A DNA stretch of 64,000 bases. Origin: Lucinisca nassula (taxonomy: Eukaryota; Mollusca; Bivalvia; Lucinida; Lucinidae). Below are positions 2,966 to 47,652 of the stretch, piece after piece; positions within the stretch are counted from its first letter, which is position 1; every line of letters starts with the position of its first letter. Made by a program: the position numbers and the translations under genes. The notes beneath the pieces were generated by a model. The model searched no databases, was not told the DNA's origin, and saw only the letters and a program-made list of their open reading frames with translations. The stretch lies in assembly GCA_963580285.1 (NCBI GenBank), contig OY757011.1, positions 100,904,316 to 100,968,315 of the forward strand, in the 5' to 3' direction.

Positions 2966-3788
2966 ACAGTTGAACAATGTAATGAAAACATGATTGACAT
3001 GACAATATGTTTTAGTATTAGTTCCAAGGTATTTCCATGCATTTTATATTTTACCTGCTTAGTTATATTTGTTATTTCTGCTCCGCTGCACTTTAATTTG
3101 AAAACATTATTAGGCATATTTTAAGTTTTTGGATAAGGTTCAAGGTTTCGCGGCCTATCTATCTATCTTCTTATACTGAGTCGGTCATATCTGGCCATAC
3201 CTCAGTTGATTGGGTGGCTAAATTTAGAATTTAGCTGAAAAAAAAAAAAAAAGAGGCACTGGTAAAAGCCGTCGTATAATTTTGATGTTATAGTTTAAAA
3301 GTTTGATATTATCAGTTTTGACGTGCAACTGCGTCCATCGAAAAAATATAATAATTCAATGTTCATCGGAAAAATATTAGACTTGTCAATGAGAGAATCT
3401 TTGCATTGGTTGGCAAAATAATGTATTTTAATGCAATTTAGGTTTTGTTTCATTGGTAAGAAAGCGATATTTGGAAAACTATTTGTAGCACAAACATTTC
3501 ACGTGTAGTTGTAAGCAACCTTAAACAAATGAAATTTGTTAACTATAGTGCTATTGATGGCTGGCCCCCATCATCCCGCTGAAAGTACACGTGAAATGTT
3601 CCTTACTCAATGAATTATGAACGTGAAGAAATATTTTTTCTGAGCACTTTTTATGAAAACCTAGTGAGCCGAAATTTCCAATCTGATACGATTTTCATTT
3701 TTCTTTTTATACATGTAGTTATTTAATTGCAATGTCAGCTATTTTCATATGTACATGGTACCAGAACTAGATATGCAAAGTAGAAGTA
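2966..3788. other. Non-coding stretch with one short inverted repeat
   Basis: Contains an A-run (about 3238-3254) and an inverted AACATTTCACGTG pair (about 3492-3506 and 3586-3600). Nothing else recognised. Confidence 0.45.
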
Positions 3789-4018
3789 AAACAAAGATCA
3801 CGAATCGATACAATTAACTTACTCCACCCATAAAAGAGACCAAAGGGAAAGAAACACAAACATTAAGCGACCAGACCATAATGGAAACCCAAACAAAGGA
3901 AGGCCATAAGGACAGTTACTTTCCCACAAAATGGCCATATGGCCATCCAAAATAAAAAGACATAAGTGATACACACATTAAGTAACAAACAACAACATAA
4001 ATAATCGCCACAGAAGAA
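3789..4018 (-). mobile_element. Penelope-like terminal module, inverted, 5' of copy A
   Basis: Reverse complement of the module at 1198-1441. Together with the direct copy at 6192-6430 it brackets copy A as an inverted pair. Penelope-like elements are known to carry terminal repeats in either orientation. Confidence 0.75.
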
Positions 4019-5190
4019 CCAGAACCAGAACTAGATATGTCATGCACATATATATCGAAATCGTTTTTTATTGCGTATGTCTAATTATTATAGTTCCTTT
4101 CCGAGTAGTACTATGGCGAATTGTAGCAAACTAAGCTTCCTAAAAAAGAAACTTTTCTCTGTAAGTGAAACAAAAGCAGCTATACACATTTGTTTGTGTA
4201 AAATGTTTCTATTTTCAAAATCAGGAAGAAATCTCTTTTGGTCTATAAAAAATTCGAATGAGGTTTTAAATAAATTGAAATCCAGACATGTTCGTGCTTC
4301 AAGTCTGTCTACTTACGATTTTTCCACTCTTTACACTACACTTCCTCATAATCTTATAAAAGAAAAGCTTAATGATTTACTTGAATGGGCTTTTCACAGA
4401 GAAGATTCTCTCTATCTTGCATGTAATGTCACAAATGCATTTTTCACTTCTAAAGAGCATAAGAATTATACACTTTGGTCATGTCAGAAAGTGTGTGGTG
4501 CCCTCACCTTTCTACTTGACAATATTTATATTAGATTCGGTACTAAGTTATTTAGACAAATTGTGGGTATTCCGATGGGTACGAATTGCGCACCTCTTGT
4601 GGCTGATCTGTTCTTGTATTGTTATGAAAGAGACTTCATGTTGTCGCTTTCCATTGATAACCAATCTGAAATTATTGAAGCTTTTAGCTGCACTTCTAGA
4701 TATTTAGATGATTTATTAAATATTGATAATACCTTTTTCGATGGTTTGATCAGTCAGATTTACCCCCCAGAACTTCAGTTAAATAAAGCAAATTCTTCTG
4801 ATACCGAGGCCCCGTTTTTGGATTTACATCTATCTATTGTAGATGGGTTTGTTTCGTGCAAAATTTATGATAAACGCGATGACTTTGATTTTGAGATTGT
4901 AAATTTTCCTTTTTTGGATGGTGATGTTCCTCGTGCGCCATCCTATGGCGTTTATATTTCGCAATTAATTCGATTTGCTAGAGTCATGTAACTGACTTCA
5001 ACACTCGTAATAAATTATTAACGGCTAAACTTCTTAATCAGGGTTATCGGTACCATAAACTACGCAAAGCCTTTTCAAAATTTTATAGACGCCATTCTGA
5101 TTTAATTTCAAAATTCAATATATGGCTTAGTGTATATTATATTTTCTTGTCCTTTGGGATCATTGATTCCATTGTGGAATTTTGAAAATA

Positions 5191-5247
5191 TCTGAGGGTC
5201 ACTGATGAGGCCTAATTGGCCGAAACTAGCTAGTCTGGCCCAGAAAA
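5191..5247 (+). ncRNA. Hammerhead ribozyme, type I, unit 1
   Basis: All core positions are present: CTGATGA (5202-5208), 4-bp stem II GGCC/GGCC with loop TAATT, GAAA (5222-5225), a 2-bp stem III in CTAGCTAG, then the TC cleavage site (after C5235). Stem I pairs GGGTCA (5196-5201) with TGGCCC (5236-5241). Stem III is minimal, and hammerheads like this are reported to cleave best as dimers. Confidence 0.85.
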
Positions 5248-5451
5248 CATGTACACTCCATATTTTTCAGTTCTGTGCTGTATTCCTTGCTTCCAAAGGA
5301 TAACCCTTTTATAGAACATATTTGACTTCACTACAGCTGGTGTGTGGGAATGTGTGGCGGCGGTAAAACGTCTCCCTGCCCTACATCATAGTGTAGATTA
5401 TATTTTCTTGTCCTTTGGGATCATTGATTCCATTTTGGAATTTTGAAAATA

Positions 5452-5508
5452 TCTGAGGGTCACTGATGAGGCCTAATTGGCCGAAACTAGCTAGTCTGGT
5501 CCAGAAAA
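5452..5508 (+). ncRNA. Hammerhead ribozyme, type I, unit 2
   Basis: Same core as unit 1: CTGATGA 5463-5469, GAAA 5483-5486, predicted cleavage after C5496. The stem I partner reads TGGTCC, which still pairs with GGGTCA through a G-U wobble. Cleavage at both sites would release a 261-nt RNA. Confidence 0.85.
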
Positions 5509-5860
5509 CATGCACACTCCATATTTTTCAGTTCTGTGGTGTATTCCTTGCTTCCAAAGGATAACCCTTTTATAGAACATATTTAAATCTCTTCTGCAAC
5601 AAGGTCTATCGGAACCCGAATTTTATGGTGACTCAGTATATAAATTCAGAAAAATATATAACCGCAATGACTTCAGCACCAAATTTGGTAAACTCATTCT
5701 TCGATATAAAAAAATTGGGTACATCATGGATGTTATACGACAGACTGCATGCATGGTAGTTAACCCAATCACGGTTGGCAACTTTGCTTCCCTCTTTAAT
5801 TGCACGCTGATGGGTCAGGCCTCAGATTCTATGACGGCTCCAACGTAAAGGCTTATTGAG

Positions 5861-6191
5861 AATTAGAGAGATCTAATTCGAGGTAATGTTGGTTGGTGCC
5901 AGATGCTCTGTCTCTGGTCGGACCCATCGGAGTCTAACTGTTGGTTTTCTTTTGCTCCAGCATTTCAGTGGTTTCTTGCTGTCGAGTCCTCACCGTTGTC
6001 TCACCTCTGTGGTTCTTTGATTATTTGTGTTCACGGAGATGTTGCACTACTGAGTTAGGAGGCCTTCATGCGGACTGAACAAATTGTTTGTCTAAATCGC
6101 GACGGAAGTAAGGGCGAGGATTTCGGCCACGTAAAATCGATTTAAGCCCCCCAGTGGAAATCTTTCCACTGACCGTTCCAAGGCGGTTCAT
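5861..6191 (+). mobile_element. 3' UTR of Penelope-like copy A
   Basis: Shares its sequence with 12815-13156 and with the complement of 14032-14386, from TTATTGAGAAT through CTGTCTCTGGTCGG to the CCAGTGGAAATC hairpin just before the terminal module. Confidence 0.75.
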
Positions 6192-6430
6192 CTGTGGCGG
6201 TTTATTTATGTTGCTGTTTGTTACTTACTGTGTGTATCACTTGTGTCTTTTTATTTTGGATGGCCATATGGCCATTTTGTGGGAAAGTAACTGTCCTTAT
6301 GACCTTCCTTTGTTTAGGTTTCCATTATGATCTGGTCGCTTAATGTTTGTGTTTCTTTCCCTTTCGTGTCTTTGATGGGTGGAGTAAGTTAATTGTATCG
6401 ATTCCTGATCTTTGTTTTACTTCTACTTTG
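6192..6430 (+). mobile_element. Penelope-like terminal module, 3' of copy A
   Basis: Direct copy of the ~235-bp module (see 1198-1441), joined to the 3' UTR of copy A. Confidence 0.75.
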
Positions 6431-8063: not shown

Positions 8064-8699
8064 TGTCCAGTTTTTAATATTATCATTTTTCCCGCATCAT
8101 TCGAAAACATATTTGTGCAGTCTTTGTTTTAGGTTTTTATCAAAGTATTTGTCAAATGCAGGATAATTTTGTTCAACAATGGATTTTAAATTCCCTGATC
8201 TGGTTAAAAAATCAATAGTACTGTTCGCATCAATTATGCCCTTCGCGCCGAATATTTTTTCCATAATGTTATCTCTCTGAGATTTGTCCAATCCTACATC
8301 GTTTTGCAAGTAATGTTTCACGTTATCTTCCAAGTGTTTGGTACACAGATATCTCTTTGCAGTAGGAAAGACATGGTCGATATCTTTAGTCAAGGCCTTT
8401 TCGTCGTCGGTACCGAGCTCCATTCTGTCGTAAATGCGTACCTCGACTGTATCGATTTCGCTATCAAGCTCTGTGGCAATATGCTCCAAGAAACACTTGT
8501 AAGTTTTATAAGTTACATCCTTAGGGAGCATTACCGGACCCCAAAAGATGGGATGTTCATCCGCTATTCTGGTTCTTGTATACAAGGGTCCCGTGACATA
8601 GAAATTACCAAGATTGAATGTTCTGTCTATTCCGATTGGCTGTTGCTTAGCATGCTTTAAAAATGTCTTAAGTCTTGCATTTGTTCTTGTGTATAACAA
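7677..8699 (-). pseudogene. MULE-type DDE transposase domain (decayed)
   Basis: The minus strand reads GIDRTFNLGNFYVTGPLY (first Asp), HPIFWGPVMLP, GTDDEKALTK (second Asp), HVFPTAKRYLCTKHLEDN, then NWTNNNAESMNNMLK (likely catalytic Glu) and a basic C-terminus to 7677. The order D...D...E with NNxxESxN fits Mutator-like (MULE) transposases. Two in-frame TGA stops break it, at 8097-8099 and in V-D-stop-K near 8014. Upstream minus-strand pieces 8797-10517 belong to the same element. Confidence 0.65.
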
Positions 8700-8796
8700 A
8701 TGATATTAGGAACTTGGTCCTTGTTATGTATGATGGTTTGAACGTAGGGATGATCATTGACCATACCTAGAACCTCTAAAATTTCGTCAGCAACAT

Positions 8797-11181: not shown

Positions 11182-12814
11182 ATACTAACTTATTACCTCC
11201 TAAGCCCAAGACGTCTTTACGTCATCTTAAACTAGGTATTCAAGAATTTTATAAGAAGTTTGTTTTGGTCCCTGCAGACAAGGCCGCTAACAACGTCGTC
11301 GTTGTGTGACGGCTCCACTATGTTAACACGCTTAAGCAGGAGCTTGGTGGTACTAAGGCCTATGAACTTCAGCCTTTAGCTGAAGAGAGAGCTATAGTAG
11401 ATAAACATGTTTGTCTTTCAGCCACGAAGTTTGCTGTGTGTGTTAACGAAAGCCAAGACAAGCTTCCTACGCTATACTGGTTACCAAAACTTCATAAAAG
11501 ACCTTACAAAGCACGGTTTATTGCATATTCTAGCTCTTGCACTACCACTGAACTTTCTAAATTATTAACTTCCTGTCTTACTGCTATTAAAACGCATGTA
11601 ATAAAAAATATTGTGATAAAGTCTTTGAAAGATCAGGAAGGAATCTGTTTTGGTCTATAAAAAAAATTCGAATGAGGTTTTAAATAAATTGAAATCCAGA
11701 CATTTTCGTGCTTCTAGTCTGTCTACTTACGATTTTTCCACTCTTTACACAACACTTCCTCATAATCTTATAAAAGAAAAGCTTAATGATTTAATTGAAC
11801 GGGCTTTTCACAGAGAAGATTCTCTCTATCTTGCATGTAATGTCAGAAATGCATTTTTCACTTCTAAAGAGCATAAGAATTATACACTTTGGTCATGTCA
11901 GAAAGTGTGTGATGCCCTCACCTTTCTACTTGACAATATTTATATTAGATTCGGTACTAAGTTATTTAGACAAATTGTGGGTATTCCGAAGGGTACTAAT
12001 TGCGCACCTCTTGTGGCTGATCTGTTCTTGTATTGTTATGAAAGAGACTTCATTTTGTCGCTTTCCATTGATAACCAATCTGAAATTATTGAAGCTTTTA
12101 GCTCCACTTCTAGATATTTAGATGATTTATTAAATATTGATAATACTTATTTTGATGGTTTGATCAGTCAGATTTACCCCCCTAGAACTTCAGTTAAATA
12201 AAGCAAATTCTTCTGATACCGAGGCCCCGTTTTTGGATTTACATCTATCTATTGTAGATGGATTTGTTTCGTGCAAAATTTATGATAAACGCAATGACTT
12301 TGATTTTGAGATTGTAAATTTTCCTTTTTTGGATGGTGATGTTCCTCGTGCGCCATCCTATGGCGTTTATATTTCGCAATTAATTCGATTTGCTATAGTG
12401 TGTAGTCATGTAACTGACTTCAACACTCGTAATAAATTATTAACGGCTAAACTCCTTAATCAGGGTTATCGGTACCATAAACTACGCAAAGCCTTTTCAA
12501 AATTTTATAGACGCCATTCTGATTTAATTTCAAATTTCAATATTGGACTTAAATCTCTTCTGCAACAAGGTCTATCGGAACCCGAATTTTATGGTGACTT
12601 AGTATATAAATTCAGAAAAATATATAACCGCAATGACTTCAGCACCCAAGTTCGTAAAATCATTCTTCGATATAAAAAGATTGGGTACAACATGGATATT
12701 ATACGACAAACTGCATGCATGGTAGTTAACCCAATCACGGTTGGCAACTTTGCTTCCCTCTTTAATTGCACGCCGGTGGGTCAGGCCTCAGATTCTATGA
12801 CGGCTCCAACGTAA
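11182..12814 (+). pseudogene. Penelope-like reverse transcriptase, copy B (broken, longest N-terminus)
   Basis: The earliest recognisable coding reads KTSLRHLKLGIQEF, FVLVPADKAANNVVVV, a TGA stop at about 11307, then YVNTLKQELGGTKAYE, DKLPTLYWLPKLHKRPYK and RFIAYSSSCTTTELSK. After a frame change near 11640 comes the RT core (DFSTLYTTLPH, GIPKGTNCAPLVADLF with Met changed to Lys, SRYLDDLL). A 7-C run at 12177-12184 replaces the 6-C run of copy A and shifts the frame before the C-terminal domain (12233-12814), which ends QASDSMTAPT. The C-terminal part shows no GIY-YIG motif. Confidence 0.75.
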
Positions 12815-13394
12815 AGGCTTATTGAGAATAAGAGAGATCTAATTCAAGGTAATGTTGGTTAGTGCCTGATGCTCTGTCTCTGGTCGGGCCCATCGGAGTC
12901 TAACTGTTGGTTTTCTTTTGCTCCAGCATTTCACTGGTTTCTTGCTGTCGAGTCCTCACCGTTGTCTCACCTCTGTGGTTCTTTGATTTTTGTGTTCACG
13001 GAGATGTTGCACTGATGAGTTAGGAGGCTTTCATGTGGACTGAACAAATTATTTGTCTAAATCGCAACGGAAGTAAGGGCGAGGATAGTGGCCACGTAAA
13101 ATCGATTTAAGCCCCCCAGTGGAAATCTTCCACTGACCGTTCCAAGGCGGCTCTTATGTGGCGATTTATTTATGTTGTTGTTTGTTACTTACTGTGTGTA
13201 TCACTTGTGTCTTTTAATTTTGGATGGCCATATGGCCATTTTGTGGGAAAGTAACTGTCCTTATGGCCTTCCTTTGTTTAGGTTTCCATTATGGTCTGGT
13301 CGCTTAATGTTTGTATTTCTTTCCCTTTGGTGTCTTTTATGGGTGGAGTAAGTTAATTGTATCAATTCCTGAGCTTTGTTTTACTTCTACTTTT
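12815..13394 (+). mobile_element. 3' UTR and terminal module of Penelope-like copy B
   Basis: 12815-13156 matches the 3' UTR of copies A and C; 13157-13394 is the ~235-bp module in direct orientation. No matching module was seen at the 5' end, so copy B looks 5' truncated. Confidence 0.75.
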
Positions 13395-13746: not shown

Positions 13747-13806
13747 CTGTTTGATTGATCACCGAATTGAGAGGCCTTATTGTTTTGACAGCAAACGCTT
13801 TCGTAA

Positions 13807-14031
13807 GTAGAAGTAAAACAAAGATCAGGAATCGATACAATTAACTCCACCATCAAAGACACCAAAGGGAAAGAAACACAAACATTAAGCGACCAGACCA
13901 TAATGGAAACCTAAACAAAGGAAGGCCAAAAGGACAGTTACTTTCCCACAAAATGGCCATATGGCCATCCAAAATAAAAAGACACAAGTGATACACACAG
14001 TAAGTAACAAACAACATAAATAAACCGCCAC
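13807..14031 (-). mobile_element. Penelope-like terminal module, 3' of copy C
   Basis: Module in minus orientation joined to the copy C 3' UTR. Confidence 0.75.
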
Positions 14032-15520
14032 AGAAGAACCGCCTTGGAACGGGCAGTGGAAAGATTTCCACTTGGGGGGGGGGGGGGGCTTAAATCGATT
14101 TTACGTGGCCACAATCCTCGACCTTACTTCCGTCGCGATTTAGACAAATAATTTGTTCAGTCCGCATGAAGGCCTCCTAACTCATCAGTGCAACATCTCC
14201 GTGAACACAAAAAATCAAAGAACCACAGAGGTGAGACAACGGTGAGGACTCGACAGCAAGAAACCACTGAAATGCTGGAGCAAAAGAAAACCAACAGTTA
14301 GACTCCGATGGGTCCGACCAGAGACAGAGCATCAGGCACCAACCAACATTACCTTGGATTAGATTTCTCTAATTCTCAATAAGCCTTTACGTTGGAGCCG
14401 TCATAGAATCTGAGGCCTGACCCACCGGCGTGCAATTAAAGAGGGAAGCAAAGTTGCCAACCGTGATTGGGTTAACTACCATGCATGCAGTCTGTCGTAT
14501 AACATCCATGTTGTACCCAATCTTTTTATATCGAAGAATGATTGTACGAAATTGGGTGCTGACGTCATTGCGGTTATATATTTTTCTGAATTTATATACT
14601 AAGTCACCATAAAATTCGGGTTCCGATAGACCTTGTTGCAGAAGAGATTTAAGTCCAATATTGAATTTTGAAATTAAATCAGAATGGCGTCTATAAAATT
14701 TTGAAAAGGCTTTGCGTAGTTTATGGTACCGATAACCCTGATTAAGAAGTTTAGCCGTTAATAATTTATTACGAGTGTTGGAGTCAGTTACATGACTACA
14801 CACTCTAGCAAATCGAATTAATTGCGAAATATAAACGCCATAGGATGGCGCACGAGGAACATCACTATCCAAAAAAGGAAAATTTAAAATCTCAAAATCA
14901 AAGTCATTGCGTTTATCATAAATTTTGCACGAAACAAACCCATCTACAATAGATAGATGTAAATTCAAAAACGGGGCCTCGGTATCAGAAGAATTTGCTT
15001 TATTTAACTGAAGTTCTTGGGGGGGGGGGGGGGGGGGTAAATCTCACTGATCAAACCATCGAAATAGGTATTATCAATATTAATAAATCATCTAAATATC
15101 TAGAAGTGCAGCTAAAAGCTTCAACAATTTCAGATTGGTTATCAATGGAAAGCGACAGCATGAAGTCTCTTTCATAACAATACAAGAACAGATCAGCCAC
15201 AAGAGGTGCGCAATTCATACCCATCGGAATACCCACAATATGTCTAAATAACTTAGTACCGAATCTAATATAAATATTGTCAAGTAGAAAGGTGAGGGCA
15301 TCACACACTTTCTGACATGACCAAAGTGTATAATTCTTATGCTCTTTAGAAGTGAAAAATGCATTTCTGACATTACATGCAAGGTGCAGACAATCTTCTC
15401 TGTGAAAAGCCCATTCAATTAAATCATTAAGCTTTTCTTTTATAAGATTATGAGGAAGTGTTGTGTAAAGAGTGGAAAAATCGTAAGTAGACAGACTTGA
15501 AGCACGAAAATGTCTGGTAA
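14032..15520 (-). pseudogene. Penelope-like reverse transcriptase, copy C (broken)
   Basis: On the minus strand from about 15517 it reads RHFRASSLSTYDF, DFSTLYTTLPH, GIPMGMNCAPLVADLF and SRYLDDLL, then a C-run of 19 (G-run 15019-15037) in place of the YPP codons, then LHLSIVDGFVSCKIYD to QASDSMTAPT at 14387; 14032-14386 is the 3' UTR. The protein starts abruptly at 15517, so it is 5' truncated. The long homopolymer shifts the frame. A second G-run in the 3' UTR (14076-14088) is also expanded. Confidence 0.75.
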
Positions 15521-15847
15521 GGTAAATGTAAGGTGTCAAAATCGATTATCGTACATCGATCATCGAATCCTTTGGACTTCTGTTTGATTGAAAAGATAAA
15601 CGTATACAATAAACAGTAGCGATTTTCACATTATCACCTATTAACAAACACGGGGCTGACAAGGTAACACATCAGGTATTGCGAAACTAGTCTTAAGTGT
15701 CATTAAATAGTATAATGAGGTGCGGTCTACCACATTCTTTTCAATCTTTTTCTTAATTATAGTATTATCAGCATGATTGGTTTACACACTCCGGTAAATG
15801 GTGTAATTAATTAAATAATGTAGTTTTTTACTGTTTCGACATTTTAA
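15521..15847. other. Unassigned spacer
   Basis: AT-rich; begins with a short run of GTAAGGTAAATG-like sequence and an ATCGAT-rich stretch (15541-15568). Nothing else recognised. Confidence 0.4.
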
Positions 15848-16081
15848 AGTAGAAGTAAAACAAAGATCAGGAATTGATACAATTAACTTACTCCATCCAT
15901 AAAAGACACCAAAGGGAAAGAAATACAAACATTAAGCGACCAGACCATAATGGAAACCTAAACAAAGGAAGGCCATATGGACAGTTACTTTCCCACAAAA
16001 TGGCCATATGGCCATCCAAAATTAAAAGACACAAGTGATACACACAGTAAGTAACAAACAACAACATAAATAAATCGCCAC
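15848..16081 (-). mobile_element. Penelope-like terminal module, same orientation as copy C
   Basis: With 13807-14031 it brackets copy C as a direct pair, whereas copy A has an inverted pair. It ends about 150 bases before the SGNH gene. Confidence 0.7.
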
Positions 16082-16177: not shown

Positions 16178-16229
16178 CTAATTATATATATATTGGCAGT
16201 GAAAAACAGATTTAACAACAACCATCAAA

Positions 16230-16820
16230 ATGCCTAAGACAATTGCAATGTATGGTGATAGCTACGTTAAAAGACTGAAAGAATACTGCGATGGCGATCT
16301 TCGGGTGCCTGGTAGAGTCTACTGGTTTGCTAAGGAAGGTTTACGTTCAGACTTAAAGGATAGATATGGTTTACACGTAGACGTTGATGGCAAATCCAAG
16401 TTCGACAGGCTCAAGATGCTCAAACCAGATGTCGTCTTCTTAAATGTCGGTGGGAACGACTTAACGTCGACTACAACCCCTAGACAGATCTTCGAACAGG
16501 TCGTCCGAATGGTTGAGGAACTGAAAGAAGCCGGCATAACAGACGTCTATGTTGCAGAAATACTGACGAGAGGCGACTTCTCAAAATGTCCAGATTCGGC
16601 CATGAATAAGACTTCGTTTGATCTTCAACGTAAAAAGATTAATACACTGTTAGTAAAAGAGTTACAGGAGAAACTCGTCAGGTTTCCAGATATTCGTTTT
16701 CCAGCCGATTATACAGCAGACCTCGTACATCTGATGCCCCGTTCGTCAAGTACGAATAACAGCGGTTTGAAGAAATACGCAACCAGAATATGCAGGATCC
16801 TCTGCAGTCAAAACAATTAA
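16230..16820 (+). CDS. SGNH/GDSL-hydrolase-like protein, intronless, intact
   Basis: 196 codons from ATG (context ATCAAAATGC) to TAA. SGNH blocks are in order: YGDSY with Ser11, a Gly at 38, NVGGND with Asn76, and DLVH with Asp164/His167. The catalytic set for an esterase or acetyl-hydrolase fold is therefore complete. There is no signal peptide or membrane segment, so it is likely intracellular. Small SGNH proteins like this accompany invertebrate retroelements and recombinases, so transposon cargo is possible, but no partner ORF is adjacent. An AT-rich TATATATATATTGG (16180-16193) could be a TATA box. The histone-like stem-loop just downstream is described separately. Substrate unknown. Confidence 0.75.
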   Translation: MPKTIAMYGDSYVKRLKEYCDGDLRVPGRVYWFAKEGLRSDLKDRYGLHVDVDGKSKFDRLKMLKPDVVFLNVGGNDLTSTTTPRQIFEQVVRMVEELKEAGITDVYVAEILTRGDFSKCPDSAMNKTSFDLQRKKINTLLVKELQEKLVRFPDIRFPADYTADLVHLMPRSSSTNNSGLKKYATRICRILCSQNN

Positions 16821-24628: not shown

Positions 24629-24984
24629 CATTTTTTTATAAATTAATCCCCATAATAATTCTTTTTTTAATTAAAATAACATATTGAGGTTCACATGGTT
24701 AATTGATGAATTATAACTTTCTATAATTTACCTAACATTTACTGGATCACACTGCCATATAGCAGGATTAATCATTTGATTCTTAACTGAGCCAGGGTGA
24801 ATAAAGTATGTTCACATGTTAAATTTGGTCAAACTATGACATACCAAATATATATTAAGCATATATCCCCCCCCTCCCCCCAAAAAACTATTTAATTGGC
24901 CCCAAACAATTTTTTTGAGTGTGTTCTGATAATTACCAGTGTGTTCCGGTGTTTTGGTGTGTTCCGGTATTTCTACGAACCGTC

Positions 24985-26595
24985 AACAGACAGTTTGAGT
25001 CTGTGTACACCCGGGAACAAGTAGGTGCCCCTCCATCAAAAGGACCAAGCCCCTATCCAGACATAGATGACCTATTCATTGACCCAAATGGGGTCAGAAA
25101 ACTACTAGACCGTCTTAACCCCCACAAATCCTCAGGTCCTGATGACCTCAGCGCCCGTGTGTTAAAAGAATGCAGCGCAGAAATTGCTCCAGTCCTTGCC
25201 TGCATCTTCAATCAGTCCCTGGCCCAGGGTAAGGTCCCAGATGATTGGCTTCAAGCCAATGTGGCACCCATTTACAAGAAAGGGGAAAAGTATGACCCTG
25301 CCAATTATAGGCCTGTATCACTGACTTGTATTTGCTGTAAGTCTCTGGAGCACATCATCGTGGGCAAAATCATGCAACATCTTTCAGAGCACAAGATCCT
25401 TGTCGAATCCCAACATGGATTTAGAAGCGGTAGGTCATGTGAGACCCAGCTTGTCCAGTTCATCCACGACCTACAGGAAAACCTGGACGGGGCCCATAAT
25501 AGGGGTCACAAACAAACAGACCTAATTATTATGGACTTCGCTAAGGCTTTCGATAAAGTCCCCCACAGAAGACTTCTGTATAAACTGGAGTACTATGGTA
25601 TCCGAAATGATACCCTCCAGTGGATTTCTGCTTGGCTATCCGGACGAACACAAAGAGTCGTACTTGACGGTGTTTGCTCTGACCCCGCCCCGGTGCTGTC
25701 TGGTGTCCCACAAGGTTCCGTGCTGGGACCGATATTGTTTTTGATTTTTATTAATGACCTGCCAGACAACATCAACTCTACAATCCGCCTTTTCGCTGAC
25801 GATTGTGTACTGTATAGAAATATAAGAGGGTCTGATGACCTACAGATACTTCAAGATGACTTGGAAAAGTTGGCTACCTGGGAAGAGGCATGGCTCATGA
25901 AATTTAATGTCGCCAAATGTCACTCTATGAGAGTGACAAGGCACCCCCCACATAAACAGATGGTCCATGGTTATACATTACATAACCAGGTTTTAGAGAA
26001 CGTTTCTTCTGCTAAATACTTAGGAGTTCAAATCACTGATGACCTCGAGTGGGGTCAACACATTAATGAGATAACTAATAAAATTACTAAGACACTCGGT
26101 TTCCTTCGTAGAAATTTGGCCTTCGCACCGAGGGAAACCAAGGATGCTGCATACAAAACCTTAGTCCGCCCCAAGCTTGAATATGCAGCTCCAGTTTGGA
26201 TGCCCTATCATCAAAAGGAGACTGATAGAATAGAAAAAGTTCAGAGGACTGCTGCTCGCTGGACCTGCAGACGTTGGCGCAACCAAAGTCACGTTGGAGA
26301 GATGCTTGAAGAACTCCAGTGGCCGACTCTGCAGGAAAGGCGAGAGCAGGCTTCGCTGACTCTATTCTATAAAATCCACAATAATTTAGCCATTATAGAT
26401 AAGAGTAGGTACCTATCTGAAGCTGGTGGAGGATGTAGGAGAACCAGGTCCCATCCCTTTCAGTATCACCGTCCTAATGCTTATACGGATGGTTTTAAGA
26501 GTTCTTTTTTCCCCAGGACAATTGCAACTTGGAATGGCCTTAGAATCGAAGCTGTCTCTTCTGAGACAGTTGATGGGTTTAAGGCCAAAATATAA
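24985..26595 (+). CDS. CR1/Jockey-like LINE reverse transcriptase (5' truncated, ORF intact)
   Basis: About 536 codons with LNPHKSSGPDDLSARVLKEC, APIYKKGEKYDPANYRPVSL, QHGFRSGRSCETQL, DFAKAFDKVPHRRLLYKL, GVPQGSVLGPILFLIFINDL and the catalytic FADDCVLY, then AKYLGVQITDDLEW and the C-terminal connection domain to a stop at 26595. The motif order is that of CR1/Jockey-group LINEs. The apurinic endonuclease that should precede it is absent; upstream lies the TIR element 23482-24983, and the open frame continuing into that element is chance. Probably not mobile, but recently active since the RT is open. A 3' UTR follows. Confidence 0.85.
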   Translation, partial: NRQFESVYTREQVGAPPSKGPSPYPDIDDLFIDPNGVRKLLDRLNPHKSSGPDDLSARVLKECSAEIAPVLACIFNQSLAQGKVPDDWLQANVAPIYKKGEKYDPANYRPVSLTCICCKSLEHIIVGKIMQHLSEHKILVESQHGFRSGRSCETQLVQFIHDLQENLDGAHNRGHKQTDLIIMDFAKAFDKVPHRRLLYKLEYYGIRNDTLQWISAWLSGRTQRVVLDGVCSDPAPVLSGVPQGSVLGPILFLIFINDLPDNINSTIRLFADDCVLYRNIRGSDDLQILQDDLEKLATWEEAWLMKFNVAKCHSMRVTRHPPHKQMVHGYTLHNQVLENVSSAKYLGVQITDDLEWGQHINEITNKITKTLGFLRRNLAFAPRETKDAAYKTLVRPKLEYAAPVWMPYHQKETDRIEKVQRTAARWTCRRWRNQSHVGEMLEELQWPTLQERREQASLTLFYKIHNNLAIIDKSRYLSEAGGGCRRTRSHPFQYHRPNAYTDGFKSSFFPRTIATWNGLRIEAVSSETVDGFKAKI

Positions 26596-29804: not shown

Positions 29805-32800
29805 GTAAATTCCCTCTCTCTCTGCGGGCATTGGTGGCTCAGCCGTCACTCTGGCAGCAAATTGATCACAATCCCCCTCTCTTTTCAAGAAGGGCAGCTA
29901 ATACCGTAATAATCCTAAGTATTGGTTCAGATAGGCATAATTATTATGCAAATAATGCAGAACCATATCAGACTGCTCCTTCAGGAGCAGGAGCAGTCTG
30001 ATCTGGCACTACACTGCCATTCCATCAGCACCTTTTGGACTCCATGCTGGATCATGAAACTAGTTATGCCCCCCCCCCCCCCCCCCCCACCGGGGGGGGG
30101 AGGAGGGAGACATATTGTTTTTGGTGCGGATCCCGTTTGCGTCAGTGTCCGAGTAGCCTGTTTGAAGCACTGTATCTCCTGAACCTATGGATGGATTTAT
30201 AGACACATCACTAGGATGGTGGAAACAAATTAATTAATTTTAGTCAAACTTGGTACAATAAATCATTACAACATACCGCAGATTTGATTAGATTCTCTTG
30301 ATCTTGCTCTCATTTTCAAGGTCACAGCGACCCAAAAACAGTCATTTTTGGGCCAAAAATGGCTTGTCTGCACTCTATCTCATTAAAGAATTTATTAATT
30401 TTAGTCGAACTTGGTACAATATATCATTACAACATACCGCAGACTTGACTAGACCTCATTTTCAAGGTCACAGTGATCCAAAAACAGTTATTTTGGGGTC
30501 AAAAATGGCTTGTCTGCACTCTATCTCATTAACGAATTGATTGATTTTAGTCAGTGGCTTGTTCGCAGCTTACAGTTTGGTGACTTTAACCTTGTTATTA
30601 AAGTCAAATGGGTGTTTAAGATATATTTATGGTGGGGGGACATTGTTTTCCTCTGAAAACATTTCTAGTTTGTTAAAATTTTAGGAGATTACTGCAAGTC
30701 CTCAAGGTGTCAAAATTTTTAGGACTTTTACATTATGTACCAAAATTAAAATTGCAGATTGCCAACTGGAAGGAGTATTTTCTGGTCACACAGGTCCTCT
30801 TGAAGATTTTGGAGTGCCCCATCACAATAAATCCTGTCTCTGTTTTTGTTTTCTTTTTTAACAAGGTAAGAGCCCCCTCCCCCCACCCATGCACACATTT
30901 TTTTTTTCTGGGAACCCTACCAAGCCTACTTTTTGGAGGCCTGCTCAAACTTTATCTGAGAAATTTTCATCTACTTTTAGGTAGTTGGGTATTTTTAAAG
31001 ATTTAACGCTTTTCGTATAAGTAAAATAAACAAAAAAATGACCTACCTACCAACCCCAAAATGTTTTGAGACACACTGTGAAACAGACCCCTTTTTTTTT
31101 TTAGCTCACCAGAGCCGAAGGCTCCGTGGGAGCTTATAGTAAGGCAGTGATCCGCCGTCGGTCGTCCGCGTCTGCGTCCGCGTCCGCGTCTGCGTCAACA
31201 TTTTCAAATGACTTCTCCTCAGAAACTGCTGGGCCAATTGAAACCAAATTACATGTGGAGTCTCTATGGGAAGGGGGAACGAAAGTTTGTTCGGGAGGAC
31301 TGGGTCACATGACCAAGATGGCCGCGATGCCCATATATGGTAAAAACCTTTAAAAATCTTCTTCTCAAGAACCGAACAGCCGATGATCTTGAAACTTGGT
31401 ATGCAGTATCAGGGACTCGGGCCCTACCAAGTTTGTTCAAATGATGACCTTTGGTTGACCTTGACCTGTTTTACGTCAAGGTCAAATTTGGTCACTTAGA
31501 CATTTGTATGGAAAAATGGCAAAACAGTGGATTTTTTTCTGATTGTATGTTAGCTAGTGGCATCAGAAATGGTATTAGCAATCAGCTGAATGGAAGTTTA
31601 TCAGTTTCAGAGGTCAAGGTCATTTACCGACCTTTGTCCAGGATGGCTCAGATTCAGTATTTTCATCTTCTTCTTCACTTAAACTACTTGGCCAATTGAA
31701 ACCAAATTACATGTGGAGCCTCTATGGAATGGGGGAACGAAAGTTTGTTCATGAGGACTGGGTCACATGACCAATATGGCCGCCATGCCCATATATGGTA
31801 AAAACCTTTAAAAATCTTCTTCTCAAGAACCGAACAGCCGATGATCTTGAAACTTGGTATGCAGCATCAGGGACTCTGGCCCTACCAAGTTTGTTCGAAT
31901 GATGACCTTTGGTTGACCTTGACCTGTTTTACGTCAAGGTCAAATTTGGTCACTTAGACATTTGTATGGAAAAATGGCAAAACAGTGGATTTTTCTGATT
32001 TATATTAGCTAGTGGCATCAGAAATGGTATTAACAATCAGCTGAATGGAAGTTTATCAGTTCCAAAGGTCAAGGTCATTTACCGACCTTTGTCTTGGATG
32101 GCTCAAATTCAGTATTTTTATCTTCTTCTTCACTTAAACTACTTGGACAATTGAAACCAAATTACATGTGGAGCCTCTATGGAATGAGGGAACAAAAGTT
32201 TGTTCGTGAGGACTGGGTCACATGACCAATATGGCCACCATGCCCATATATGGTAAAAACCTTTAAAAATCTTTTTCTCAAGAACGGAATGGCCGATGGT
32301 CTTGAAACTTGGTATGCAGCATCAGGGACTCTGGCCCTACCAAGTTTGTTCAAATGATGACCTTTGGTTGACCTTGACCTGTTTTACATCAAGGTCAAAT
32401 TTAGTCACTTAGACATTTGTATGGAAACATGGCAAAACTGGATTTTTCTGAATGTGTATTAGCTTTTGGCATCAGAAATGGTATTTACAATCAGCTGAAT
32501 GGAAGTTTATCAGTTCCAAAGGTCAAGGTCATTTACCGACCTTTGTCCAGGACACCTCAGATTCAGTACTTTTATTTTCTTCTTCACTTAAACTACCCGG
32601 CCAGTTGAAACCAAATTATATGTGGAGTCTCTATGGAATGAAGGAACGAAATTTTGTTCGTGATGACTGGGTCACATGACCAATATGGGCCGCCATGCCC
32701 ATTTATGGTAAAAACCTTTAAAAATCTTCTTCTCAAGAGCCGAATGGCCGATGATCTGGAAACTTGGTATGCAGCATCAGGGACTCTGGCCCTACCAAGT

Positions 32801-35800
32801 TTGTTCAAATGATGACCTTTGGTTGACCTTGACCTGTTTTATGTCAAGGTCAAACTTGGTCACTTAGACATTTGTATGGAAAAATGGCAAAGTAGTGGAT
32901 ATTTCTGATTGCCTGGTAGGCTGTGACATCAAAAATGATATTTGCAGTTAGCTGAAAGGAAGTTTATTAATTCCAAAGGTCAAGGTCATTACTGACCTTT
33001 GTCTTGGATGGCTCAGTTTCAGTATTTTTATCTTCTTCTCCAGTAAAAGAGCTGTGCTGATTGAAACCAAGATACATGTAAAGCATCTATGGGGGTGAGG
33101 CAGTTAAACATTATCCGTGGTATTGTTGTCACATGACCAAGATGGGCACCTTGCCTTTATATGGTATAAACCACATGACCTCTGGTGAGCATAGTGGCCC
33201 ATGGGCCTCTTGTTTTTTTTTTTTTTTCCTAAGTCACAAGTAAGCATGCTCAGCTACACAGACTAGCTAAAGTCTTGAAGTTTTACAAATACAGTAGAAT
33301 TCCACTATTAAGACCAGCTAAAATTAAGAAAAATTCTGCTTTTAAATGCATATGATAAAAAATTATTTCCCCGCCCATCGGGGCTTGAAGAAATAGATGG
33401 GCTGCATGATGCTTCCACCCAGAGCTGAATCCGACCTGCACACGAGTACTGGTAAACTGCTTAGAGGATCTAAGTCTGCCCAGGCAAAGCGGTGCGAGTT
33501 GGACCATCCATGCTTATAAACCCTATTGATTTCATTGGGCGATAGGGCTTGAGATGTCAATTCATCTCAATGTCGGGTAAAAGTCCCACAAAATTGGAAG
33601 CAACATCTGCAAAATGACATATACAGTGTTGACAGGGACGTTAAACCTCAAATCAAACAAACAAACATCTCAAGCCCTGTCGCCCAATGAAACCAATAGG
33701 GTTTATAAGCATGGACGGTCCGACTCACACTGCTTTGCCTGGGCAGTCTTAGATCCTCTAAGGGGTTTACCAGTTCTCGTGTGCAGTCGGTTTCAGCTCT
33801 GCGTGGAAGCATCATGCAGCCTATTTATTTCTTCAAGCCCCAATGGGCGGGGGCCAAGCAAAAGTTTTGAAATTTTACAAATACAGTAGAATTCCACTAT
33901 GAAGACCAGCTAAAATTTAGACAAATTCTGCTTTTAAATGCATATGATATCTAAATGAGTTCAGCTGTTCTGTCTGTGTCTTTCTACACCGAGAGTCCTC
34001 TAGAATGGGACCACCTTTGGTACTGTTCAGAAGTGGTCTTAAAGACCACTTTTGAACAGTCCCAAAGGTGGTATTAATATAGGAATTGTACTGTATATGT
34101 AAACACAAAAGTACTACTATCCAAGTAGTGAACACAAAGGTGCTGATCAGACTGTGCGGATGCACAGACTGAATATCCCCTTCCTTGTTCCCAAATGCCA
34201 GAGAAGAGATTTTCTCAGGTCACTGTTCATGTAAAAAGAAATGAATAAATTTTCAGAGAAGGCAAATCATTCAATAATATTTGAATTATGGTATGAAATT
34301 TTTCCACCAGCCATCACCCTTTGTATTAATACTTGTCCTGCTGAATAAATTTATTTTGCCACACCCATTTCTGTCTCTCAGTCAATCAGATTGCTCAACA
34401 TAATGCAGTGTTCTGCCAAGAAATTCAAAAACATGGGCCAATGGCCCATCAGACAGGAAATTGTCGGGCCATTTACAAAAAAGTGGGGCCATTCACCAAA
34501 AAAGCAGGGCCATTCACAAAAAAAAATCAATTTATACAAAGGGCGAGTATGACCTCTTGAAAGGGCCATTTATCAATCAATATTTTATTTCTGTCCGACT
34601 TTTTTGATTTTTATTTTAAATGTGGAAATACAATGTTAAACAGGTGTTGTAGACATTGACATGAAAATCATGACCTTGCAGTCGGTAAACAAAAAAGATC
34701 AAACAGAATTTTTTTCTTGGCCTTCAGCTAAATGTGTCTCATTACTATTTTTAGCCTAAGGAAATATAATTTTGGGGAACACTGAAACATGGGTTGATCA
34801 AAAAGAGACAGATCAGCCTGCGCAGCCTGATCAGAACATTCGCTGTTGGCTCTACAATTAAGTAGGAATCTGTTACCATAAACAAATTATTATAAGAGCG
34901 TTGGGTATTATCAAACCAAAGGCAATAATATTTACGGCCACTGACACGTGACCAGTCCACAGGTGTCAGGTGTGAAAAACGTGTTGGGTTAATTTTGAGA
35001 GGCTAAAAATATATATTGGGCTGCAGATTAATAGACTTCAAAGGAAAGCAACCGGATCAAGACATGATGACGGTTCGTTCCTCGAGAAAAAGGTGCGCCC
35101 GGCAATAATTTGGATGCCCCCACGGGCCCATGGATGTCAACTTTTCTGCGCCATACAGATTTTTTCCGCGCCAATGGCGCAAGGGCGCGGCCTTGGCAGA
35201 ACACTGATAATGGATGCATTAAGTTCACAGACTGATGACAAACAGTGTAGATCCTGATCAGATGGCTTCAGAAGAAGCCATCTGATCATATCTACACTGT
35301 TTAGAAAGGTGGTGAATGCTAAATGAGCAGACGACAAATTGACAATATTTTCTTACTTTTTGCAGAAAACATATTTTGACATTTCATGCTTTTATTTGTT
35401 TGTTTGACTTGAGGTTTAACATCCCCGTCAATACTGTATAGGTCATTTTGGAGACTTCGCTTCCAATTTTGTGGGACTTTTACCCAGCATTGAGACAAAA
35501 TGACATCTCACTCAAGATCTGCCACCCAATATTACCAAAAGGGTTTATACACATGGATGGTCAGACTCGCATCACTTTTCCTGGGCAGGCTTAGAACATC
35601 TAAGCAGTTTACCAGTACTCGTTTGCAGTCGGTTACAGCTCTAAGTGGAAGCATCATGGAGCCCAATCTATTTCTTCAAGCCCTGATGGGCTGGGGCTGG
35701 ACATTTCATGCAAATTATCTCCAATGAGCCAGTTTGCATGCAATGTCAAAATATGTTTTCTCGGAAAAATAAGAGATATACTTTAAAAAATCGTCTTTTG

Positions 35801-44800: not shown

Positions 44801-47652
44801 TGGCCATTACTCCAATACCCTTTAAGATATATTGATGATACCTGGCACAGTTGTTCACAAGGCTGAGACAGTGTGTCATGCGCAAGAACTACAACTCTGG
44901 GTGCCATGGTTTTTTAGTTATCTCCCCTTCCAATAATATAGAATCACTACCTTGTGATGGCCACATCTCCAACACCCTTTGAGATATATTTATGATACTT
45001 GATACAGTTGTACATGATGTTAAGCAGGTGTGTCATGTGCAAGAACCACAACTCTGGGTGCCCTGGTTTTTTTAATTATCTCCCCTGACAATATAACCTT
45101 GAGATGGCCATAACTCCAATACCCTTTGTGATATATTGATGGTACTTGGCACAATTGTATACAACTTTGCAACGGCACTTCATGCCAAAGAACCACAACT
45201 CTGGGTGCCAAGATATTTGAATTATCTCCCCTTCCAATATAACAGTATGACAACCTTGTGATCATAGTACCTACAATACCCTTTGAGACATATTTGTGGT
45301 ACTTGATGCAGATGTACATGAGGTTAAGCAGGTGTGTCATGCTCAAGAATTACAACTCTGGGTGCTCTGGTTTTTAGCTCACCGTCACGTAGTGACGAGG
45401 TGAGCTTTTGGGATCACGTTTTGTCCGTCGTCAGTGCGTCCGTCCGTCCGTCCGTCCGTGCGTAAACAATTTCTTCAAACGACATCTCCTCCTAAACCAC
45501 TGATTGGATTTTGACCAAACTTCACAGGAATGATCCTTAGGTGGTCCCCTTTCAAAGTTGTTCAAATGGTTCCGGTCCGTTGCACATCTGGGTCACAGGA
45601 GCCAAAAATAGATTTTTTTTCACCGAAAACTTAAAAAATCTTCTTCTCTGAAACCACAAGGCCCAGGTCTTTAATATTTGGTATGTAGCTTCATCTAGTG
45701 GACCCCTACCAAGATTGTTCAAATTATAGTGCTGGGGCCAAAAATGCCCCCGCCCCGGGGCCCTTTGGTTTTACATGGGCTTATATAGGGAAAATCTTTA
45801 AAAATCTTCTTCTCTGAAACCGTAAGGCCCAGGACTTTGATATTTGGTATGAAGCTTCATCTAGTGGACCCCTACCAAGATTGTTCAAATTATTATGCTG
45901 GGGCCAAAAATGCCCCCGCCCCGGGGCCCTTTGGTTTTACATGGGCTTATATAGGGAAAATCTATAAAAATCTTCTTCTCTGAAACCGCAAGGCCCAGGT
46001 CTTTGATATTTGGTATGAAGCTTCATCTAGTGGACCCCTACCAAGATTGTTCAAATTATAGTGCTGGGGCCAAAAATGACCCCGCCCCGGGGCCCTTTGG
46101 TTTTACATGGGCTTATATATGGAAAATCTTTAAAAATCTTCTTCTCTGAAACCACAAGGCCCAGGTCTTTAATATTTGGTATGTAGCTTCATCTAGTGGA
46201 CCCCTACCAATATTGTTCAAATTATAGTGCTGGGGCCAAAAATGCCCCCGCCCTGTACATTGGCTTATATAGGGAAAATCTATAAAAATCTTCTTCTCTG
46301 AAACTGTAAGGCCCAGAGCTTTGATATTTGGTATGAAGCTTCATCTAGTGGACCCCTACCAAGATTGTTCAAATTATTGTGCCGGGGACAAAAATGCTTC
46401 CGCCCCGGGGCCCTTTGGTTTTACATGGGCTTATATATGGAAAATCTATAAAAATCTTCTTCTCTGAAACCGCAAGGCCCAGGTCTTTGATATTTGGTAT
46501 GAAGCTTCATCTAGTGGACCCCTACCAAGATTGTTCAAATTATTGTGCCGGGGACAAAAATGCTCCCGCCCCGGGGCCCTTTGGTTTTACATGGGCTTAT
46601 ATATGGAAAATCTATAAAAATCTTCTTCTCTGAAACCGCAAGGCCCAGGTCTTTGATATTTGGTATGAAGCTTCATCTAGTGGACCCCTACCAAGATTGA
46701 TCAAATTATAGTGCTGGGGCCAAAAATGACCCCGCCCCAGGGCCCTTTGGTTTTCCATGGGCTTATATATGGAAAATCTATAAAAATCTTCTTCTCTGAA
46801 ACCGCAAGGCCCAGGTCTTTGATATTTGGTATGAAGCTTCATCTAGTGGACCCCTAACAAGATTGTTCAAATTATAGTGCTGGGGCCAAAAATGCCCCCG
46901 CCCCGGGGCCCTTTGCTTTTACATGGGCTTCTACATGAAAAATCTTCTTCTCTGAAACCGCAAGGCCCAGGTCTTTGATATTTGGTATGAAGCTTCATCT
47001 AGTGGACCCCTACCAAGATTGTTCAAATTGTAGTGCTGTGGCCAAAAATGCCCCCACCCCGGGGCCCTTTGGTGTTACATGGGCTTATATAGGGAAAATC
47101 TTTAAGAATCTTCTCTGAAATCTTCTTCTCTGAAACCGCAAGGCCCAGGTCTTTGATATTTGGTATGAAGCTTCATCTAGTGGACCCCTACCAAGATTGA
47201 TCAAATTATAGTGCTGGGGCCAAAAATGACCCCGCCCCAGGGCCCTTTGGTTTTCCATGGGCTTATATATGGAAAATCTTTAAAAATCTTCTTCTCTGAA
47301 ACCGCAAGGCCCAGGTCTTTGATATTTGGTATGAAGCTTCATCTAGTGGACCCCTACCAAGATTGTTCAAATTATAATGCTGGGGCCAAAAATGCCCCCG
47401 GTCTGGGGCCCTTTGCTTTTACATGGGCTTCTACATGAAAAATCTTTAAAAATCTTCTTCTCTGAAACCGCAAGGCCCAGGTCTTTGATATTTGGTATGA
47501 AGCTTCATCTAGTGGACCCCTACCAAGATTGTTCAAATTGTAGTGCTGTGGCCAAAAATGCCCCCACCCCGGGGCCCTTTGGTGTTACATGGGCTTATAT
47601 AGGGAAAATCTTTAAAAATCTTCTCTGAAACCGCAAGGCCCAGGTCTTTGAT

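Follow-up and report, generated by a model that had tools for sequence, protein, structure and literature searches.

Known hammerhead retroelements

Metazoan non-LTR retrozymes (Cervera and de la Pena 2020, PMC7229834) are described, in the accessible text of that source, with units of ~350–390 bp in Mytilus, ~220–245 bp in coral and 330 and 350 bp in axolotl, and with target duplications that, when present, exceed 4 bp. The same text names LINEs or PLEs as retrozyme helpers and regards PLEs as a strong candidate, and the accessible part of PMC7761336 states that retrozyme repeats show no conserved motif pointing to a helper. In PAc, a PLE of Anolis, the available text of PMC11167929 places the hammerhead cut at +26 and the start of reverse transcription at +111–118, inside the RNA, with the RNA beyond the start being required.

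Retrozyme integration and the helper are described as open, and many near-identical copies in one genome let sequence address both. The window, by which we mean the whole 64-kb stretch of DNA analysed here, holds one insert of such a family. We consider this insert very probably to be a genomic metazoan non-LTR retrozyme whose cut and circularised units are copied from a near-fixed start by a reverse transcriptase (RT) acting in trans. The retrozyme reading, which had been proposed from the letters of the window, is supported by the high number of dispersed arrays, by their anatomy and by the constraint that transmitted templates show on the ribozyme. The main interest lies in what the family shows about retrozyme copying and not in the window insert: its arrays have a near-fixed end beside a conserved block, some of them resemble copies of a single template, and transmitted variants can be tested against private ones.

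The insert and its target site

The features of the insert and of the RT element that hosts it are as follows.

3776..6430, + strand: host RT element copy A, interrupted by the insert; inverted ~245-bp terminal repeats
4227–4985 and ~5585–5848, + strand: RT fragment and C-terminal part of copy A
5127..5129, + strand: TTA target duplication, left copy; both flanks match copy B at 12549–12551
5130..5582, + strand: putative retrozyme array insert, 1.75 units of 261 bp, from alignment against the empty sites of B and C; ends ambiguous by TTA
5196..5241, + strand: type I hammerhead motif 1, core 5202–5235, cleavage expected after C5235; descriptor scan, alignment and pair counts
5226..5233, + strand: stem III with palindromic AGCU loop of motif 1, read from the sequence and from a cofold of the family consensus
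5236..5496, + strand: predicted 261-nt unit RNA between both cleavage sites (inferred product), 41% GC
5323..5422, + strand: unit positions 88–187, a block common with family V2 (~79%), at the start of which V1 and V2 arrays end
5457..5502, + strand: type I hammerhead motif 2, core 5463–5496, cleavage expected after C5496; descriptor, alignment and pair counts
5583..5584, + strand: array 3' end at u87–88, the near-fixed end of the family, from alignments and genome pattern counts
5583..5585, + strand: TTA target duplication, right copy, the first two bases of which are also unit positions 87–88

Self-alignment and a descriptor scan of the window bear out the tandem pair of hammerheads 261 bp apart that the sequence-only reading had described. 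The copies at 5128–5323 and 5389–5584, each of 196 bp, share 97.4% identity at an offset of 261 bp. The same reading had the array missing from sister copies B (+, 12549–12551) and C (−, 14650–14652) of the RT element, and this holds: both are uninterrupted and empty at the insert site, with the TTA overlap. Since the flanks of the insert overlap by TTA, positions 5130–5582 were inserted with a 3-bp duplication. The GC content (41.4% in the unit, 39.5% in the insert) is below 50%, as in metazoan non-LTR retrozymes, and none of the three + strand frames is open through the window array, each of them containing stops.

The 3-bp duplication in the window falls short of the >4 bp reported for metazoan retrozymes. 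Because the accessible text of PMC7229834 words duplication as ‘when present’, we treat a >4-bp duplication as typical of retrozymes and not as defining them. Comparison with uninterrupted copies of the same RT element gave 4-bp overlaps of TTTG for the insert at L032 and of TTGA for that at L027, the latter read by eye from the flanks. Alignment of further loci gave up to 6 bp with mismatches at L021, 1–2 bp at L030 and L040, and 0–3 bp at L035. CTT stands at the junction in six of the eight loci with a readable host site (nine were inspected) and is absent from L028 and L040. A junction match of at least 4 bp was found in 24 of 48 pairs against a mean of 28% and a maximum of 43% in 200 mispaired controls, for a set from which L010, L013, L014, L033, L041 and L042 were excluded, as were nine positional arrays out of 23.

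A large dispersed family

In the 2.93-Gb genome of the species itself, exact matches to the 34-nt ribozyme core number 15,322, and the reversed control has none. A search of the same genome returned at least 85 places at 96–100% identity, with 40 of 2178 candidates scored. The existence of other 261-bp copies, on which the sequence-only reading had staked its retrozyme claim, is thereby plain. The family is dispersed and has many thousands of genomic copies, and the window insert itself is an ordinary member of it.

Structure of the hammerheads

Both window motifs carry CTGATGA, GAAA and UC cleavage sites at 5235 and 5496, together with a 4-bp stem II (GGCC/GGCC, loop TAATT), a stem III of 2 bp plus a closing A–U pair (ACU/AGU, loop AGCU) and a 6-bp stem I (GGGUCA/UGGCCC). 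The single stem I difference, a C to T at 5500 in motif 2, keeps its pairing as G–U, as had been claimed. The descriptor (stem I ≥4, stem II ≥3, stem III ≥2) matched exactly twice in the 64-kb window, both times in the insert, and four times in total over both strands of 60 dinucleotide-shuffled windows. The bare pattern CTGANGA-N(4–20)-GAAA is loose: it matched eight times in the window against 3.04 expected, a number reached by one of 100 shuffles, and six of the eight matches fall outside the insert motifs.

A covariance-model hit had been named as a check whose failure would count against the hammerheads, and taken literally the check failed, no Rfam family reaching its gathering score anywhere in the window. 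The best sub-threshold matches covered both copies at E values of 0.25–3.4 (RAGATH-1-hammerhead, 19.7 and 18.1 bits; Hammerhead_3, 18.2; HH9, 17.6). We judge the missing match to be a limit of the Rfam models, because the shortfall is outweighed by 15,322 exact copies in the genome and by the test for constraint given below. The short stem III and the lack of a gathering match are what a chance hammerhead-like sequence in an unrelated repeat would also present. Such an origin is nevertheless extremely improbable in view of the low descriptor background in shuffled windows, of array-wide variants that spare ribozyme positions, and of a second family that keeps the core and the pairing with some changed letters.

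Thermodynamic folding was less distinctive. Free folding of two 61-nt motif pieces was unremarkable (z −0.94 and 0.08), the hammerhead fold, at −14.8 and −9.2 kcal/mol, lying above the minima, which are other folds at −16.6 and −13.0 kcal/mol. Against 100 shuffles the 261-nt circle showed only a modest gain in stability (z −1.95), and the hammerhead fold was absent from its minimum free energy structure. The AGCU loop with stem III and the flanking A and U, ACUAGCUAGU, is a full palindrome, and pairing between two copies, such as motifs 1 and 2 of the insert, would allow a dimeric or double hammerhead in which stem III has ten pairs. In a cofold of two consensus copies this stretch pairs between the copies (−47.1 against −16.6 kcal/mol for one copy), and the remaining stems of the cofold differ from those of the double hammerhead. 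The motifs and their spacing are consistent with the predicted release of a 261-nt RNA able to circularise.

Array ends

Unit positions are numbered from u1, the first base after the hammerhead cleavage site. The array set comprised 39 fetched loci and the window, giving 44 segments that include short fragments of L013, L014 and L041; the main 98% array of L014 lies on the other strand, outside the 40-array set. The 40 variant-analysed arrays had been chosen by similarity to a 456-bp query, which favours the u87 end in short arrays, and arrays of at least 717 bp and a positional sample were therefore counted separately. For the positional sample, the 30 core matches that come first on contig C1 were merged into 23 arrays.

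The 3' end is nearly fixed. It falls at u83–93 in 40 of the 44 segments and, among the 16 arrays that reach 717 bp or more, in 15; these 15 long arrays stop 84–91 nt past the cleavage site, just before the ~100-nt block common with V2. The positional sample agrees, with the near-fixed end in 19 of 23 arrays under lenient alignment and in 16 of 23 under strict alignment, against 0.97 expected. Exceptions are L033 (u205) among the fetched loci and L051 (u72), L056, L065 (u32) and L071 (u75) in the positional sample. Genome-wide, u69–87 has 23,350 exact copies, of which 4,852 (20.8%) survive a 15-nt extension across the site, against 24,260 and 12,553 (51.7%) for a control 19-mer elsewhere in the unit; since the drop at u88 partly reflects subfamily differences past the site, it gives no exact count of insertions.

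The 5' ends, by comparison, are variable. They cluster at u140–166 (19/44 segments, 10/16 long arrays) and at u228–235 (6/44), and several lie at u244–256, shortly before the cleavage site. Arrays range from under one to about nine units of 261 bp, their lengths not being whole units, and the unit lies within the ~150–450 bp described for tandem units that run from dimers to multimers.

The 5' cluster at u140–166 could mark either a transcription start or a strong stop. The former would suit a hammerhead satellite or SINE-like repeat that moves as linear multimers, with no circle, transcription from ~u140–166, reverse transcription from u87 and a ribozyme serving RNA processing only. Reverse transcription of a multimer would also yield multi-unit arrays. 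The starts are, however, spread over ~25 nt and also occur elsewhere in the unit, and together with the likeness of units described next this makes linear multimers an unlikely explanation.

Likeness of units and constraint on the ribozyme

Units of one array resemble each other more than they resemble units of other arrays. For 82 full units, forming 85 within-array pairs, mean divergence was 0.78% within arrays against 2.34% after label shuffling (0 of 1000 shuffles as low), and with partial units included it was 1.25% within and 2.77% between arrays. Some arrays have the appearance of copies of a single template. L023, with ten full and partial units, carries three array-wide variants and one private variant; L032, with four units, has five array-wide and no private variants; and L035, with six, has four array-wide variants and one other. 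Others are unlike a single template, with array-wide and other variants numbering 0 and 5 in the window, 0 and 15 in L027, and 1 and 18 in L034.

This likeness is what several laps on a single RNA circle and subsequent decay would produce. The arrays without array-wide variants, the window's included, accord with the linear-multimer explanation as well, but the multimer of an aged source array would carry unit-to-unit differences, and so the greater likeness within arrays, with some young arrays resembling copies of one template, counts against it. The main alternative for unit likeness is crossing-over, which could also homogenise units: retrotransposed dimers would then have grown locally into longer arrays by unequal exchange, as satellites do. 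This also predicts homogeneity within arrays, yet array lengths are not whole units, long and short arrays end at the same 3' site, and the young array of L023, with its one private variant, needs no later exchange. We regard local satellite expansion as rather improbable, and copying from a circle as the better account of the arrays.

Array-wide variants were probably present in the template, whereas variants of single units probably arose later. The ribozyme, defined as u222–261 plus u1–6, makes up 18.7% of testable sites; the two variant classes comprise substitutions found in all units or in one unit only, at sites covered by more than one unit. Only 1 of 70 array-wide variants falls in the ribozyme against 24 of 139 private variants (Fisher p 4.5e-4), and when distinct array-wide variants are counted the figure is 1 of 36 (p 0.03). 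The sole array-wide ribozyme variant, a C to T at u246 in L036, lies in stem II and keeps a G–U pair. As far as genomic variants record it, these counts show the ribozyme to be under constraint in transmitted templates.

A second family

A hammerhead-bearing unit of 383 bp, here called V2, was found in L013. Stems I and II of its hammerhead remain paired although some letters differ. Its loop III is ACGU, again a palindrome, which is lost in one V2 copy (L072). Cleavage is expected after GUA in the following copies.

L013, 1088–1478, − strand: V2 copy
L063, 1905–2351: V2 copy
L070, 946–1331: V2 copy
L072, 1791–2140: V2 copy

In an alignment of ten V1 and V2 hammerheads, nine of them distinct, pairing holds in 93.2% of cells, a value reached by 22 of 500 shuffles, and the covariation score of 0.252 is reached by 2 of 500; only two pairs are changed on both sides, a number reached by 144 of 500 shuffles. 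In the four loci with the end covered, V2 arrays stop 65–67 nt past the cleavage site, while the copy in L055 runs off its stretch. This end aligns with that of V1, at the start of the ~100-nt block common to both families. Since V2 ends at 65–67 nt and V1 at ~87 nt, both at the same block start, the fixed feature is the block and not the distance from the ribozyme.

The two families are also found joined. At L013 (near 2118 in array orientation) and at L063 (near 1883), an exact V1 3' end adjoins a V2 copy truncated in hammerhead loop II; these junctions could have arisen by template jumping, by a nested insertion or because a single locus was duplicated.

The host element and the candidate helper

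The RT element interrupted by the insert is abundant, with at least 7,998 related proteins scored, some of which are labelled as Candidatus Thiodiazotropha bins. It may be Penelope-like, as its motifs and its inverted terminal copies, a feature also of PLEs, suggest. Three fragments were scanned: RVT_1 matches were weak (14.3 and 21.3 bits against a Pfam cut-off of 29.6), and GIY-YIG, the endonuclease of canonical PLEs, had no match in any of them. The descriptor scan found no hammerhead in the window copies of the element. An AlphaFold model (pLDDT 37.6) was unusable, a sequence search of the PDB returned insulin matches alone (E 0.3 or worse), the profile search gave nothing and NCBIfam nothing relevant. 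The pattern CTGATGAG-N(6–12)-CGAAACTAGCTAGT had no match in viral_contigs or in genome_contigs. The element has a near-fixed 3' end of its own, TTTTACTTCTACTT(T), and occurs with solo and inverted ~240-bp terminal copies, placed in the window as follows.

1315–1441: RT element terminal copy
3777–3903: RT element terminal copy
6301–6429: RT element terminal copy
13267–13393: RT element terminal copy
13805–13925: RT element terminal copy
15846–15972: RT element terminal copy

The suggestion that the array had landed inside its likely helper family finds no support. The RT element lies on both sides of 4 of 40 insertions (window, L027, L028 and L032) and on the 3' side only of L008. Its share of the sequence is 8.2% in the flanks of loci lacking such an insertion, 11.7% over the flanks as a whole and 10.0% in the window, the flank background not being random genome and L014 being evaluated on other than its main array. 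With a coverage of 8–12%, 4 of 40 insertions, or 5 of 40 with L008, is about what chance gives, and enrichment inside the RT element was rejected.

Contacts between the elements were seen occasionally. At L014 (1000–1284) the start of an old retrozyme copy (80%) coincides exactly with the RT element 3' end (ACTTCTACTTT), the one such case in 80 merged arrays, and RT copy B and the retrozyme of L035 abut the same nucleotide of one repeat. These contacts and the V1–V2 junctions, few in number, could mean template jumping or a common target preference.

GIY-YIG elements are present in the genome, with at least 138 matches and open frames of, for example, 763, 764, 801 and 820 aa, and some stand in direct tandem at 3.8–4.0 kb, as PLEs do. 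Six of the 138 listed matches were sampled: L077, L078, L079, L082 and two 3' flanks, L080 and L081. A hammerhead descriptor requiring CTGANGA, at least 4 bp in stem I and at least 2 bp in stem II matched nowhere in these six stretches, and the retrozyme block was absent apart from a 92-bp retrozyme piece in L082. This very short piece (3027–3117) runs from u258 to u88 over 92 aligned columns, downstream of the GIY-YIG open reading frame. Since the sampled stretches hold no hammerhead, the idea of a PLE helper draws on mechanism, namely the internal start of reverse transcription in PAc.

The minimal hammerhead might instead be a piece of a PLE pseudo-LTR and no independent element. PLE hammerheads are minimal type I and may act as dimers according to the accessible text of PMC7229834 and PMC7761336, and in PAc the distance from cut to RT start, obtained by subtraction from PMC11167929, is 85–92 nt, like the 87–88 nt here. 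Against this, the units form stand-alone arrays with no ORF of their own, the window array is an insertion with empty sites, and the six GIY-YIG stretches lack a descriptor hammerhead and, but for the piece in L082, the retrozyme block. An 87-nt spacing from cleavage to end as a constant common with PAc was also rejected, the V2 distance being 65–67 nt. We consider an origin as a PLE fragment very improbable, and an independent retrozyme the better description of the units.

Other elements were noted in the window. An open frame of 558 aa at 24919–26592 with a strong RVT_1 match (120.8 bits) belongs to a different RT element; 8100–8705 (−) has a weak MULE transposase match below the cut-off (19.5 bits); and 16203–16817 (+) holds a GDSL-lipase-like ORF above it (39.8 bits). 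Long tandem arrays of 166-bp and ~460-bp units occupy 45625–47652, 31223–33092 and 53274–55532, and repeats of the 166-bp type also host retrozyme insertions at L021, L030 and L040.

A proposed model of retrozyme copying

From the sequences, copying probably proceeds by target-primed, rolling-circle reverse transcription. Each hammerhead in an array transcript, working singly or paired with a second ribozyme as a dimer, would cut the RNA, releasing units of 261 nt. A ligase of the host would then circularise the unit, a step taken over from the literature. An RT supplied in trans, primed at the nicked target, would then start at a near-fixed place ~87 nt past the cleavage site and round the template for under one to about nine laps, stopping at variable places. 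Arrays made in this way would have nearly the same 3' end but differ at the 5' end, consist of almost identical units and be flanked by a short target duplication. Cleavage, circle, the detail of priming and the helper are all inferred at this stage.

We offer a more specific form tentatively, as a possibility that falls somewhat short of probable: one circle would be copied for several laps, from a start beside the conserved ~100-nt block that a Penelope-type RT would recognise, and the hammerhead would be selected because only a freed circle is mobilised.

Comparison with known systems

The family resembles the metazoan retrozymes of PMC7229834, as far as its accessible text describes them, in its type I hammerhead, tandem units within 150–450 bp, low GC, non-coding sequence and thousands of dispersed copies, and it resembles axolotl HHR_Amex2 (same source) in a weak stem III, which has two base pairs capped by a tetraloop. 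It differs from them in its 261-bp unit and short TTA-type duplications, and the likeness is one of description and not of sequence. The near-fixed internal 3' end and the one-template arrays were not found described in the accessible text of PMC7229834, and our literature search, whose coverage of subscription papers was thin, returned no prior report of either, or of a test of transmitted against private selection, for retrozymes.

The palindromic loop III, and with it a possible double hammerhead with extended stem III, recalls the satellite hammerheads of newts and salamanders (PMC6155905 and PMC7229834, accessible text). Unlike these, the monomer has three pairs in stem III, counting the closing A–U, which makes activity of the monomer more plausible. 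Plant LTR retrozymes, as the accessible parts of PMC7229834 and PMC7761336 present them, likewise have a hammerhead in direct repeats flanking the unit and a circular RNA intermediate, the latter presumed here; they differ in a type III ribozyme, LTRs with PBS and PPT, and a length of 600–800 nt.

PLEs with minimal hammerheads, namely PAc (PMC11167929) and Penelope of Adineta (PMC3846280), share with the family, in the accessible text of both sources, a partial tandem organisation, AT-rich targets, 5' microhomology and short or absent target duplications. The retrozyme unit differs from PLEs in being non-coding and short, with its hammerhead outside any ORF. What it has in common with PAc in particular, going by the accessible text of PMC11167929, is a hammerhead placed upstream of an internal start of reverse transcription.
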